From positions 1 through 64,000 of the forward strand of contig DASYRE010000062.1 in NCBI GenBank assembly GCA_036004685.1: 64,000 bases of DNA, written 5' to 3'. The DNA comes from Candidatus Polarisedimenticolia bacterium (lineage in GTDB: Bacteria > Acidobacteriota > Polarisedimenticolia > Gp22-AA2 > AA152). The notes beneath the pieces are model-generated. The model made no database searches. It saw only the letters and a program-made list of their open reading frames with translations, and was not told where the DNA came from. The translations under genes were made by a program, and so were the position numbers. This document shows positions 58,669-64,000 of the stretch, one piece after another (position 1 is the first letter of the stretch; each line of letters opens with the position of its first letter).

Positions 58669-59976
58669 ATGATCAGGCCTCGGATACCTCCGGCTTTGAA
58701 GCACCGGGGCTTCTTCCTGCTGTGGCTTGGGCAGCTCATCTCCATCGCCGGGTCCCAGATGCAGGTCTGGGCCCTCTTCTGGCACATCCGCTCCCTGACC
58801 CATCAGCCGATCGCCCTGGGAGGGATTGGCCTCGCGCGCATCCTGCCCGTCATCCTCTTTTCCCCCGTCGCGGGGGCGGTCGCCGATTCCTATAGCCGGC
58901 GGCGGATTCTCTTCATCACACAGATCGGCGCGGGATGCGTGGCCTTGATACTCGGGCTGCTCACCCAGTTCGGGCACATCGGCCTGGCGCACATCTACGC
59001 GCTGACCGCGATTCAGGCGGTGGCGGTGGCCTTCGACGGCCCGGCCCGCCAGGCGCTCATCCCGAATCTGGTGCCCGCGCGGAATCTGCCCAACGCCTTC
59101 AGCCTGACTTCCATCGCCTTCCAGGCCGGTGCCGTGATCGGCCCGGCGCTGAGCGGGATCGTGATCGTCCTGGCCGGACAGGAGGCGGTCTATTACCTCA
59201 ACGCCGCGTCGTTCTTGGCGGTCATCGTTGCCTTGGCCTTGATTGGAGACGTCCCGCAGAAGCGATGGGCCGAGTCGGGCGGCGTGAGCCGATCGGCGAT
59301 TCGGGAGGGGATGCGGTTCATCGGCGCGCGGCCGATCATCCTCTCCTCCATGTTGCTGGATTTCGTGGCGACGTTCTTCGCCTCCGCCAACACGCTGATG
59401 CCGATCATCGCGCGCGACGTCCTGAAGGTGGGGGTGGTGGAATACGGCTGGCTCTCGGCCGCGCAATCGGTCGGAGCCGTCCTGGCGGGCTTGATCATCT
59501 CGCAGCTGCGCGTCCTGAGAAGGCAGGGGCCTCTTCTGCTCGGCGCGGTGATCGTATTCGGATCGGGCACGGTCCTCTTCGGGATCACGCGCTCCTTCCC
59601 GCTGGCCTGGTTCCTGCTCGCCCTCACGGGTGCGGCCGACTCCGTCAGCACGATCATCCGGAACACCATCCGGCAGCTGCAGACGCCGGACCACATCCGG
59701 GGCCGGATGACGAGCATCAATCAGATCTTCTTCCAGGGAGGGCCGCAATTGGGCGAGATCGAGGCCGGAGCGGTGGCCCAGGTCTTCGGCGCTCCCGTCG
59801 CCATCGTGACGGGCGGGATCGGATGCCTCGCCGGCCTGGGAATGATTGTGGCGAAGTGGCCCCAGCTGATCTCGTACGACACTCACGAACCGGGATGGGC
59901 GGGAGTGGCCGGCCTCACCGACCAGAAGACCTCGCGCCGCATCGGCTCGGAGCCTGCCGAGCCGAGGGAGCACTGA
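58669..59976 (+). CDS. MFS transporter (EntS/MFS_3-like)
   Basis: The 435-aa protein has about eleven to twelve transmembrane helices. HRGFFLLWLGQLISIAGSQM and the loop GAVADSYSRRRILF (MFS motif A-like) place it in the enterobactin-exporter-like MFS_3 group. The C-terminal half contains PDHIRGRMTSINQIFFQGG. Substrate unknown; siderophores or drugs are typical for the family. It stands alone 153 nt after the sulfur operon. Confidence 0.9.
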   Translation: MIRPRIPPALKHRGFFLLWLGQLISIAGSQMQVWALFWHIRSLTHQPIALGGIGLARILPVILFSPVAGAVADSYSRRRILFITQIGAGCVALILGLLTQFGHIGLAHIYALTAIQAVAVAFDGPARQALIPNLVPARNLPNAFSLTSIAFQAGAVIGPALSGIVIVLAGQEAVYYLNAASFLAVIVALALIGDVPQKRWAESGGVSRSAIREGMRFIGARPIILSSMLLDFVATFFASANTLMPIIARDVLKVGVVEYGWLSAAQSVGAVLAGLIISQLRVLRRQGPLLLGAVIVFGSGTVLFGITRSFPLAWFLLALTGAADSVSTIIRNTIRQLQTPDHIRGRMTSINQIFFQGGPQLGEIEAGAVAQVFGAPVAIVTGGIGCLAGLGMIVAKWPQLISYDTHEPGWAGVAGLTDQKTSRRIGSEPAEPREH

Positions 59977-60329
59977 ATCGGTTCGCACCCGGCCCGGGAG
60001 CTCCTCGGGGGAAGGCCGGGAATGCAGCATGAGGGTGTCGGCCCGGCCGCGGCCAGGGCGGTGCGGAGGGCTCGGACGCTCTGCATGGGACGGCTCCGGC
60101 GGTCCAGCGACGATCGCGGCTTCTTCAGGGTCGACCTCCAGCGCCGGGACGGCTGAAGACTCCCGGGGACCGCGAGGCCGCCCGACGTTCCGGCTCCCAT
60201 TGAATGTACGAAGAAGGCACAAAGTTCTTAGCGGAAGCTGTAAGAAGATGTCTCGGCCGCCAGCGCGCCGTCCCAACGAAGCTCCGATGGCCGCTCGCGA
60301 GCCGTCCGCGGACATTGGCCCGCGGTGCG
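59977..60329. other. Intergenic region without supported gene
   Basis: These 353 nt lie between the convergent MFS and MscS genes. Overlapping short ORFs exist on both strands but lack ribosome sites and read as low-complexity basic sequence. A GC-rich stem-like tract (around 60037-60060) could act in termination; nothing firmer is seen. Confidence 0.35.
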
Positions 60330-61232
60330 TCAGGACTTGTCGGCGTCGCGCGCCGCCGGAAGCGGCCCTGCCGCCGGGGGAAGCGGGTTCCAATCGCGGA
60401 CGTGGAGATCCATTTGAGGAAAGGGCAGCCGGATGCCCGACTCGCGGAAGATCCGGTTGATGGAGAAGTGCAAGTCGCTGCGAATCTGCTGCCTTCCCAG
60501 GGGCTCCGAAATCCAGACGAGGAGCTCGAAGATGAGGGAAGATTCCCCGAAGTCGAGGAACCACACGCGGGGAGGCGGGTCCTTCAGGACTCTCGGGTGC
60601 TCGGCGGCGGCGCGCAGGAGCGTTTCGCGTACCACCTCCACGTCGGAGCCGTGGGCAACTCCCACTCGCACGTGCTCCCGGACCCGTCGATCGCCATGCG
60701 ACCAGTTGATCACCTCGGAATCGATGAACCGCGAATTGGGCACGATGATCGCGATGTTGTCCCGGGTGCGGATTTCCGTGGCGCGCATCGTGATCTTCTG
60801 GACGTCGCCATAGTGCCCGCCCACTTCCACCCGGTCCCCGACCGCCAGCGACTGCTCGAACAGGAGGAGGATGCCCGCGACGAAGTTCGCCACCACGTTC
60901 TGAAGGCCCAGACCGATTCCAACCCCCAGGAAGCCGGCGGCCACGGCCAGGCTCGTCAAGTTGAACCCGAGAACCTGCAGCGCCAGGAAGACGCCCAAGA
61001 ACAACAGCAGCCAGTGCAGGATCTGCAGGGAGGCATAGAGCACCCGCTGATCGACGCGCAGGCGTCCGGCCAGCCGCCCGCGGATGAGGCGCTTCAGGCT
61101 CCACGACACGGAGTAGAAGGCGACGACCACGAAGAGGGCCAGAGCGATGCGCCCCGGGGTGACCTCCGTCCCGAAGATGGTTATCAGCGGGAATCGAGCG
61201 GCGTACTGAATCCATTCGACGATTTCGTTCAT
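60330..61232 (-). CDS. MscS-family mechanosensitive channel
   Basis: The 300-aa protein has two to three N-terminal helices and the pore helix AVAAGFLGVGIGLGLQNVVA with Gly/Ala packing. The MscS beta domain (VEVGGHYGDVQKITMRATEI, RDNIAIIVPNSRF) is also present. It relieves osmotic pressure by gating. The ATG at 61232 has GAGGAG 3 nt upstream; the nine upstream codons are unlikely to be used. Length is normal for small-conductance channels. Confidence 0.95.
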   Translation of the reverse strand: MNEIVEWIQYAARFPLITIFGTEVTPGRIALALFVVVAFYSVSWSLKRLIRGRLAGRLRVDQRVLYASLQILHWLLLFLGVFLALQVLGFNLTSLAVAAGFLGVGIGLGLQNVVANFVAGILLLFEQSLAVGDRVEVGGHYGDVQKITMRATEIRTRDNIAIIVPNSRFIDSEVINWSHGDRRVREHVRVGVAHGSDVEVVRETLLRAAAEHPRVLKDPPPRVWFLDFGESSLIFELLVWISEPLGRQQIRSDLHFSINRIFRESGIRLPFPQMDLHVRDWNPLPPAAGPLPAARDADKS

Positions 61233-61410
61233 GCTCTCCTCGAAACCGGAGCCCGCCATGGGCTTCCGGTGCCGTTGCGGCGGTGCTGTCTATCGGATCA
61301 CGACGCTATACCGCGCACCCATTCCGACGAGGAGCTATTCAACCAGATCCCGCGACCGAATGGCCAGGTATTTGGTACGATTCGGACACTTTTGAAGGAG
61401 GGCTTGAACC

Positions 61411-61890
61411 ATGAGAACTACTCAGCGAGCGTTGATCGTTGCCCTGGCCGCTTTCGGCTTCGGGATGGGTTCGACGAGGGGGGCCGAGCCCGCGTCCGCC
61501 CCGGCTCACGCGGTGTTCACCAAGGTTCGGGACGCGAAGTGGGAGAAGATCATGCCCGACCTGGGGGAAATGTCTCCTGAGATAGCCATCCTGCGCGTCG
61601 ACCCCGAGACGCAGGCGACCCAGCTGCTCATCCGGACGCCGAAGGGAATCCACGTCCGCAAGCATTGGCATTCCGCCAACGAGACCCACACCATGATCGC
61701 CGGGAGGGCGGTCTTCGAATGCGACGGCAAGCGGGCGGAATTGGGTTCGGGAGATTTCAATTACATCCCGGCGAAGATGGTTCATGAAGCCTGGCTTCCA
61801 GCGGGCTCGCTGACCTTCATCACCGTCGACAGCGCGTGGGACCTCAATTGGGTAGAGGGGCCCCCGACGGCGGCGGACATCTCGAAGTGA
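61411..61890 (+). CDS. Secreted cupin-domain protein
   Basis: The 159-aa protein has a signal peptide (RALIVALAAFGFGMGSTRG). The cupin has motif 1 HVRKHWHSANETHTMIAG (metal-ligand His, His, Glu) and motif 2 NYIPAKMVHEAWL (His). It is a periplasmic metal-binding cupin of unknown substrate. GGAGGG lies 8 nt upstream. Confidence 0.85.
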   Translation: MRTTQRALIVALAAFGFGMGSTRGAEPASAPAHAVFTKVRDAKWEKIMPDLGEMSPEIAILRVDPETQATQLLIRTPKGIHVRKHWHSANETHTMIAGRAVFECDGKRAELGSGDFNYIPAKMVHEAWLPAGSLTFITVDSAWDLNWVEGPPTAADISK

Positions 61891-61957: not shown

Positions 61958-62707
61958 TCAGCGGCTCATGACCACGAGCGTGAGATCGTCATCACGGGCG
62001 CCCCGGGCATGGCGATCGAACGCCTCCAGGATTCTCTCGTTGATCTTCATCGCGCTGGGTTCGGTGCAGGCGGCGGAGCTCAGCGCCGAGCGCACCGCAG
62101 CCAGGCCGAACTCTTCCCCGCCGCGAGATCTTGTTTCGATCAGGCCGTCGCTGTACAGCAGGAGGGTGTCGCCCGGCTTCAAGGCCGTCGTGCGCGACGA
62201 CCACCGAGGGTTGGGAAGGGGGCCCACCACGGGACCGGTCGAAGAGAACGATTCAATCGCGCCGTTTCTCCTCGCGACCAGGGGCGGGCACTGACCGGCG
62301 TTGGCAATCGCCAGCCAGCCGTCTCTCCGCAGATGCCCGACCACGGCCGTGGCGAAACGGTTGGCCGGAAGAATGGGCTCCAGGAATCCGTGCAGGTGCA
62401 GCATGATCTCCGCCGGATCGCTTCGTGCTTCCACCCATGCGGCGATGCGGTGATCCAACTCCTCTTGAATCATCGCCATGGTCACCGCCGCCGGGAGCCC
62501 CTTTCCGGCCACGTCGCCCAGGACGACCCAGATTCCCTGCTCGTCTTCATGGACGAAATAGAAGTCTCCCGTGAACGTCCGCGCCGGGCGCGAGACGGCG
62601 TGGAGATCCACTCCCGGGGACGCCGGGATTCGCGGCGAGCCTGGGGACGTTCGGCGAGCGGGAATCCCCGTCCCGGGAGCTTCCGCATGGCTCAACGGCA
62701 CGCTCAT
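61958..62707 (-). CDS. PP2C/SpoIIE-type protein phosphatase
   Basis: The 249-aa protein is a SpoIIE/RsbU-like catalytic domain with metal-binding Asp residues in FTGDFYFVHE, VVLGDVAGKGLPAAV and GARDDDLTLVVM. No sensor domain is attached. RsbU-type enzymes dephosphorylate anti-anti-sigma proteins. ATG at 62707 has GAGGAGG 5 nt upstream. It starts 10 nt after the anti-sigma/alkyltransferase stop, so all three genes form one operon. Confidence 0.9.
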   Translation of the reverse strand: MSVPLSHAEAPGTGIPARRTSPGSPRIPASPGVDLHAVSRPARTFTGDFYFVHEDEQGIWVVLGDVAGKGLPAAVTMAMIQEELDHRIAAWVEARSDPAEIMLHLHGFLEPILPANRFATAVVGHLRRDGWLAIANAGQCPPLVARRNGAIESFSSTGPVVGPLPNPRWSSRTTALKPGDTLLLYSDGLIETRSRGGEEFGLAAVRSALSSAACTEPSAMKINERILEAFDRHARGARDDDLTLVVMSR

Positions 62708-62717
62708 CCCGGCCTCC

Positions 62718-63599
62718 TCAAGCGGCGAAGGGACGGCATCGCCGGCAAGGCCGGAACCCCCCCTTGACCGCTTCCCGGACTCCGTGGAACACGACTCGAT
62801 TCTTGTCGCGAATCCGTCGCGCGTCGCGGCAGGTCGGCACGCAGGCGACCCGCGTGGTCCGGGAGCCGATGAAGCGTATCTGCTCCCGCGCCAGACGTTC
62901 GAGCCGCTCGACGTCGACTCCTTCCCGTGCGAGCAAGGCACGCTTGGCGTCGCCCCCGAACCCGTACCGGCCCACGCCTCCCTGGGCCGGAACGATTCGA
63001 TGGCATGGCACGAGGAAAGGGACGAAGTTTCGGGCCACCACGTTGGCAACGGCCCGGACGGCCTTCGGCCGGCCAATCTCCTGCGCCAGCCACGAGTAGG
63101 ATCTCACCTCCCCGTGCGGGACGCGCAGCAAGGCCTTGAGCACTTCCTCCTCGAGCTTGCCGATCTCTCCGAAGTCCACCGCGGGCCTGGCGGTTCCCCC
63201 GCCCGCGAGAGCCGCGACGACCTGGTCCCGCAGGGTTTTGGGAAGGCTCCGGCGGGTCAGGGATCGTCCGTGGCGCCTCGCGTACCGGGTTCGGAATTCC
63301 TCCTCGGGGCCGGACGGATGGATCATGCGGATTCCTCGATCCGAGAACGCCACCCAGACGGCGGGCTGCGTCTCGGTGACGCGGTCGAGCCCATCCGCGA
63401 TGGCGTTCGACTCCCGAAGGGAACGGGGAACGGCGGGAGCGAGAGCCTTCACGGCTCGCGCCAGGCGCTCCACGTCTCCCAGCGACTCGTCGCAGCTGCG
63501 ACAGGTTCGCAGGTGCTCATGGACCTCCCCCTGCTCCGCCGGTTTCAGCTCCCCGGTCCGCAGCGCGTCGATTTTGATCAAGGCCGCCCTACATCGCAT
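62718..63599 (-). CDS. Anti-sigma zinc domain fused to alkylguanine-DNA alkyltransferase and Ada zinc domain
   Basis: The 293-aa protein has three domains. Residues 1-40 form a zinc-binding anti-sigma domain (ZAS) with Cys3 and H29-x3-C33-x2-C36. Residues about 78-225 form an O6-alkylguanine-DNA alkyltransferase with nucleophile Cys199 in PCHRIVP and Arg182 near ANVVARNF. Residues 240-293 form an Ada-type methylphosphotriester domain with C253-x3-C257-x27-C285-x2-C288, the Ada ligand set. There is no transmembrane helix. Its ATG at 63599 overlaps the sigma factor stop by 11 nt. Family functions are established; that alkylation of the Cys releases the sigma factor is inference. Confidence 0.93.
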   Translation of the reverse strand: MRCRAALIKIDALRTGELKPAEQGEVHEHLRTCRSCDESLGDVERLARAVKALAPAVPRSLRESNAIADGLDRVTETQPAVWVAFSDRGIRMIHPSGPEEEFRTRYARRHGRSLTRRSLPKTLRDQVVAALAGGGTARPAVDFGEIGKLEEEVLKALLRVPHGEVRSYSWLAQEIGRPKAVRAVANVVARNFVPFLVPCHRIVPAQGGVGRYGFGGDAKRALLAREGVDVERLERLAREQIRFIGSRTTRVACVPTCRDARRIRDKNRVVFHGVREAVKGGFRPCRRCRPFAA

Positions 63600-64000
63600 A
63601 AGTGACTCCCTTCCTGTCCAACGCGTCCCGGAGCAGCTTGAGGGAGCGAAAGATCTTTCCCCGAAGCGACGCCTCCGTCGACCCCACCGTCTTGGCGATC
63701 TCCGCGTAGGACATTTCCTCCATGAACCGCAGCACAATCAACTCCCGCGCCTCGACCGGAAGCCGGGAAAGCGCCCCCCGAAGGAGATCGACCTCTTCCT
63801 GGCGCTCGAACTCGGTTCCGGCGGTCTTCACGAACGGTCCCATACGATTGTCGTCGAAGGCCTCCAGCGGCTGCTCCAGCTGGCGGCTCTTCGAGCGGCG
63901 CTTGTTCAGGCACAGATTGCGGACCATCCGAAACAACCATGGCCTCACCGCGAGGGACGCGCATTTCGACTCATCGTACTGGCGGCAGAGCGCCCGGTGC
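63589..64000 (-). CDS. ECF sigma factor, truncated by the window edge
   Basis: The C-terminal 137 codons are in the window and the start is beyond position 64000. Region 2 is seen as ALCRQYDESKCASLA then PWLFRMVRNLCLNKRRSK. Region 4 has the helix-turn-helix ALSRLPVEARELIVLRFMEE, MSYAEIAKTVGSTEASLRGK. The stop overlaps the start of the anti-sigma fusion gene, which would control it. The factor's own promoter cannot be seen. Confidence 0.92.
   Translation of the reverse strand, partial: HRALCRQYDESKCASLAVRPWLFRMVRNLCLNKRRSKSRQLEQPLEAFDDNRMGPFVKTAGTEFERQEEVDLLRGALSRLPVEARELIVLRFMEEMSYAEIAKTVGSTEASLRGKIFRSLKLLRDALDRKGVTYAM

Follow-up and report, generated by a model that had tools for sequence, protein, structure and literature searches.

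Bacterial responses to alkylation are described through DNA-binding activators of the Ada type. In Cada2 from Caulobacter, methylation of C267, the cysteine of the PCHR motif, activates transcription, and exchange of this residue renders the protein either constitutive (C267G) or inactive (C267A) (PMC10957082). Zinc anti-sigma (ZAS) proteins encoded beside genes for ECF sigma factors are generally the anti-sigma factors of their neighbors (PMC7406223, PMC8999054). For one group of sigma factors, ECF122, the entry in PMC8999054, which cites Casas-Pastor 2021, gives 6-O-methylguanine DNA methyltransferases as conserved neighbors, no anti-sigma factor and an unknown mechanism. Because ECF122 is listed there, an association of ECF sigma factors with methyltransferases is partly known, for this one group. 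The preliminary description of the locus presented here named no described example of its central protein. This stands for the fusion of a ZAS domain with an O6-alkylguanine-DNA alkyltransferase (AGT), with or without an Ada zinc domain (AdaZn), of which no description was found in a literature search that stopped short of the original ECF classification and of supplementary files. It does not stand for the methyltransferase neighborhood as such, which the ECF122 entry in PMC8999054 already reports.

The window, that is the whole stretch of 64,000 nucleotides analyzed from a contig of Candidatus Polarisedimenticolia bacterium (Acidobacteriota), carries the protein in question as part of an apparent operon (Table 1). 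The reading frame and all cysteine and histidine residues named in the preliminary description are present exactly as given there. Pfam detects DNA_binding_1/AGT at residues 150-228 (E 1e-25) and Ada_Zn_binding at residues 243-290 (E 3e-10). The N-terminal zf-HC2 match (residues 3-36, E 0.0013) reaches 19.2 bits when the protein is searched singly, slightly below the cut-off of 22.2, and exceeds this cut-off with 23.7 bits in the genome search. The best anti-sigma match in NCBIfam is RsrA, below its cut-off, and RsiW is the top match by sequence (E 0.029). In an alignment to 1adn/1u8b, C253, C257, C285 and C288 coincide with C38, C42, C69 and C72 of E. coli Ada. The AraC output is indeed absent: Pfam gives no HTH_AraC match at E <= 10, and there is no HTH match. 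The upstream gene, the overlapping sigma factor gene of the preliminary description, encodes an ECF sigma factor in which Sigma70_r2 and r4_2 both score above their Pfam cut-offs.

Table 1. Features of the sigma factor/ZAS-AGT-AdaZn locus; positions refer to the window unless stated otherwise.
Feature	Position	Strand	Details
ECF sigma factor gene	63589..64000	-	205 aa, start MKNSWTGGEA; the window holds only the 3' part because the gene (63589-64206) runs on to 64206 of contig C62
End of sigma gene overlapping the anti-sigma start	63589..63599	-	11 nt (ATGCGATGTAG); 11-nt overlap in most of 11 loci
ZAS-AGT-AdaZn gene	62718..63599	-	293 aa, ATG start
ZAS domain	63465..63599	-	residues 1-45; Pfam, alignment, fold match
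ZAS ligand codons	C3 63591-63593; H29 63513-63515; C33 63501-63503; C36 63492-63494	-	
AGT domain	62910..63398	-	residues 68-230; Pfam, NCBIfam, alignment, fold match
AGT acceptor codon C199	63003-63005	-	within VPCHRIV
AdaZn domain (methylphosphotriester acceptor)	62730..62873	-	residues 243-290; Pfam, fold match, alignment
AdaZn acceptor codon C253	62841-62843	-	equivalent to E. coli Ada C38
SpoIIE/PP2C-type phosphatase gene	61958..62707	-	249 aa, encoded third in the apparent operon; Pfam SpoIIE E 6.7e-41
Predicted sigma promoter	contig C62 64216-64241		outside the window

An AF2 model of the protein, built from 11 homologues, has a mean pLDDT of 78.5, with the linker formed by residues 46-66 poorly modelled (pLDDT < 50). 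Residues 2-70 match RsiW (5wuq; Z 7.6, 68 residues), and the ZAS part also matches MucA (Z 7.5) and RslA (Z 5.8), values (5.8-7.6) that are modest for what is a small helical domain. The modelled N-terminus adopts the predicted fold of an anti-sigma domain. The remainder matches the two halves of Ada, residues 67-229 resembling Ada-C (1sfe, Z 15.4) and residues 235-292 methylated N-Ada (1u8b, Z 7.3, 33% identity), so that Pfam and fold matches agree with the order ZAS, alkyltransferase, Ada-Zn proposed before. Fold matches to HIV integrase are not meaningful; they cover nothing beyond the N-terminal half of the alkyltransferase, a region that Pfam classes as ribonuclease-like.

A scan of genome contigs with the single protein gave no relatives; a scan with a C-terminal alignment gave AGT-AdaZn relatives together with many classical Ada proteins. 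Full-length homologues with 44-65% identity are encoded in ten further genomes out of a sample of 396 from the phylum, and a named relative is Acidobacteria bacterium PMV_2.74 (G201, L054). The features that characterize the ZAS class, a cysteine plus HxxxCxxC as ligands and a neighboring ECF sigma gene, are both present: C3, H29, C33 and C36 are invariant in the alignment of the 11 homologues, and an ECF gene lies directly upstream in all 11 full-length acidobacterial loci (type A). The acceptor and zinc-binding residues C199, C253, C257, C285 and C288 are equally invariant, and so are Y168, R182, N191, H200 and E226, which we take to be the counterparts of Y114, R128, N137, H146 and E172 in the active site of human MGMT. 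The ATG start is supported by the sequence M-[RQ]-C, which is invariant across the 11 homologues. Inspection by eye places genes for an MFS transporter, an MscS-like channel and a cupin downstream of the operon (58669-61890), with no evident link to it, and a divergent PadR-like regulator and a permease of the MacB/FtsX type beside the sigma operon (L004:6526-9527, forward strand).

Relatives of the protein are also encoded behind ECF genes in other phyla. Methylomirabilota (Rokubacteria; the phylum of G405) possess many ZAS-AGT-AdaZn proteins that retain the ZAS motif and follow a different ECF gene (L235-L254). The Gemmatimonadota proteins (L261, L260, L263, L266) consist of ZAS and AGT without AdaZn and are the minimal form of the module. 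AGT-AdaZn proteins without the zinc motif stand behind ECF genes in Actinomycetota, among them the named genera Actinoallomurus, Actinomadura and Pseudonocardia (L055-L058), and in one family of Acidobacteriota belonging to the same order. When ZAS-less forms are aligned with a ZAS-bearing protein (L252), the zinc-finger segment is found to be lost and the segment following it retained. Some Rokubacteria genomes (e.g. G756, G760, G758) also have a ZAS-less AGT-AdaZn/ECF pair. In Myxococcota, five matches reach E <= 1e-30, and none of them extends over ZAS-AGT or AGT-AdaZn.

The linkage to sigma genes was surveyed for 167 distinct AGT proteins over all fetched loci, which had been collected by similarity of the AGT and not of the sigma factor; sigma genes were recognized with an HMM built from the fetched loci and counted when they had the orientation of the AGT gene and lay no more than 700 nt upstream of it. 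An ECF gene precedes 63 of the 69 distinct proteins in which AGT comes before AdaZn. It also precedes seven further ZAS-AGT proteins, comprising the four from Gemmatimonadota and three from Rokubacteria that carry the AdaZn cysteines with a zinc domain below the HMM threshold. Not a single upstream ECF gene was found for classical AdaZn-AGT proteins (0/39) or lone AGT proteins (0/52). The Fisher p of 2e-23 for the comparison of both domain orders is too small because the proteins are related; there is no exception on the control side. The six AGT-AdaZn proteins without an upstream ECF gene include one encoded at the end of a contig (L247) and a single clade of three (L221-L223). In a tree of AGT sequences the sigma-linked AGT-Zn types fall mostly into one weakly supported half, with the ZAS type of Rokubacteria standing apart.

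ZAS zinc sites can themselves sense oxidants, which counts against alkylation as the signal. The zinc site might thus be the actual sensor, responding to thiol oxidation or electrophiles in the manner of RsrA and ChrR, with AGT-AdaZn fused to it for co-expressed repair and the sigma factor released without any alkyl transfer. The ligand set C3/H29/C33/C36, which is of the RsrA type, fits this explanation. The explanation also agrees with reports that oxidative stress is the usual signal of soluble ZAS proteins (PMC8999054) and that soluble zinc anti-sigma factors often sense the redox state (PMC7406223). On the other hand, AGT-AdaZn stays beside the ECF gene in lineages lacking ZAS (36 distinct proteins), so that what constantly accompanies the sigma gene is the alkyl-acceptor part rather than the zinc site, and we consider a zinc-site sensor unlikely.

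The ZAS-less forms can be turned into an argument of a different kind, namely that AGT-AdaZn is a mere target, that the sigma factor is autoregulated but has its activity controlled by something else, such as the SpoIIE-type phosphatase or transcription, and that ZAS is vestigial. The description of ECF122 as devoid of an anti-sigma factor, in its entry in PMC8999054, is in line with this, as is the position of the phosphatase gene, which begins 10 bases downstream of the ZAS-AGT-AdaZn gene and is the directly following, third gene in nine of the 11 type-A loci of Acidobacteriota. However, a vestigial ZAS domain is at odds with ligands that are invariant in type A and a motif that is retained in Rokubacteria, and the search for a SpoIIE gene found none in the loci of Rokubacteria, of the named Actinomycetota or of f36; the explanation is therefore rather improbable. 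That the cue is zinc loss or the binding of damaged DNA by AGT or AdaZn, and not covalent alkylation, appears highly improbable, for although both are DNA-binding domains and the evidence collected here fits binding and transfer alike, the acceptor (PCHR) cysteine is retained in 70 of 70 sigma-linked proteins and Cada2 sets a precedent for covalent switching (PMC10957082).

The sequence CGAAC-N15-YGTGTT occurs with fixed spacing upstream of the sigma gene in 11 of 11 type-A loci, in most of them about 10-20 bases from the start codon. It resembles an ECF-type promoter, and the sigma operon is therefore likely to be autoregulated. The sigma genes of the other lineages likewise follow conserved boxes that look like promoters, TTTCAC...GGTGTCT in Rokubacteria and TGAAAC...GTGTT in Actinomycetota. 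In the genome studied here, the pattern marks only two places, the module's own operon and a site within a long open reading frame that is probably due to chance, and a search allowing two mismatches gave no enrichment (10 matches versus nine control matches); a wider repair regulon is thus not visible in this genome and the module may mainly amplify itself. In three relatives from family f34, belonging to three genera (L167/G254, L173/G042, L185/G286), the motif lies 11-24 nt before a gene for a DUF1203 protein, and in two genomes (L165, L174) before genes assigned by eye as DUF4440-like. DUF1203 was found in four of 20 genomes searched, all four of which carry the module, and in none of nine controls; one copy (G067) is not preceded by the motif. 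DUF1203 genes were rejected as a general mark of the regulon, since they are absent from the genome under study. The idea that this genome has no other adaptive response proved wrong: it encodes an AdaA-AlkA-like fusion of 516 residues, the AlkA part of which was assigned by eye, directly followed by a gene for Ogt (L035:2914-5033, G000 contig C24). The ZAS-AGT-AdaZn module would therefore be a second alkylation circuit.

Taking these observations together, we regard it as fairly likely that the locus constitutes an autoregulated alkylation-response module in which an anti-sigma factor is released by self-alkylation and a repair operon is driven as a result. In the resting state, the ZAS domain would hold the co-encoded ECF sigma factor. 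AGT and AdaZn would repair DNA by irreversibly accepting alkyl groups from base lesions on C199 and from phosphotriesters on C253. Alkylation, most likely of C199, could then disturb the AGT fold or the contact between AGT and ZAS, or mark the protein for degradation, upon which the sigma factor would be released and transcribe its own operon. More repair protein would be formed, and this new protein would reset the switch once repair is done. Judged by the distribution of domains, C199 is the likelier candidate for a universal switch residue, because AdaZn is missing from the Gemmatimonadota forms and PCHR is never missing. As to the alkylation-sensing anti-sigma factor put forward in the preliminary description, its architecture, its sigma partner and the concept as such are strongly supported by the comparative evidence, and the idea as a whole is partly borne out, with sigma binding, alkyl transfer, release and reset as steps that we infer.

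Since relatives in four phyla are encoded directly behind a sigma gene, the protein is probably a switch that answers DNA alkylation by activating genes, and does so in another way than classical Ada. The chances are slightly better than even that a whole, previously unrecognized family of adaptive-response switches exists in Acidobacteriota, Methylomirabilota, Gemmatimonadota and Actinomycetota. In such switches, the ECF sigma factor would be freed from the anti-sigma domain of a suicide repair enzyme once that enzyme has irreversibly alkylated itself. Alkyl-accepting repair domains appear to be wired to ECF sigma factors via an anti-sigma domain in phyla with a little-studied adaptive response. 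If true, the existence of this family would supply a mechanism for ECF groups that occur beside O6-methylguanine methyltransferases and were thought to lack an anti-sigma factor. The proposal is concrete and testable for sigma factors with such a neighbor, the regulation of which is given as unknown in the ECF122 entry.

The module shares with ECF122, as characterized in that entry, the combination of an ECF sigma factor and a conserved O6-methylguanine methyltransferase neighbor, and the loci of Actinomycetota (L055-L058) look like members of this group, a resemblance by type of neighbor; whereas ECF122 is described without an anti-sigma factor, the protein studied here bears a ZAS domain. 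With Cada2 (PMC10957082) it has in common the PCHR cysteine as candidate switch residue, but Cada2 is a transcription factor of the HTH type that has no AdaZn, whereas the partner module in our protein, which gives no HTH match, is an anti-sigma domain. E. coli Ada likewise combines AdaZn of the C38 type with a PCHR-type AGT, the methyl-acceptor cysteines being kept, and positive autoregulation is predicted here as well; the order of both domains is reversed, however, the AraC helix-turn-helix is lacking and the output would run via an ECF sigma factor. Finally, the soluble ZAS anti-sigma factors RsrA, ChrR and RshA also carry an N-terminal ZAS domain and are encoded beside an ECF sigma gene, and ChrR shares the C-terminal location of the sensor domain. 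These proteins sense through a redox zinc site or a cupin, whereas here the sensor part is a pair of suicide DNA-repair enzymes.
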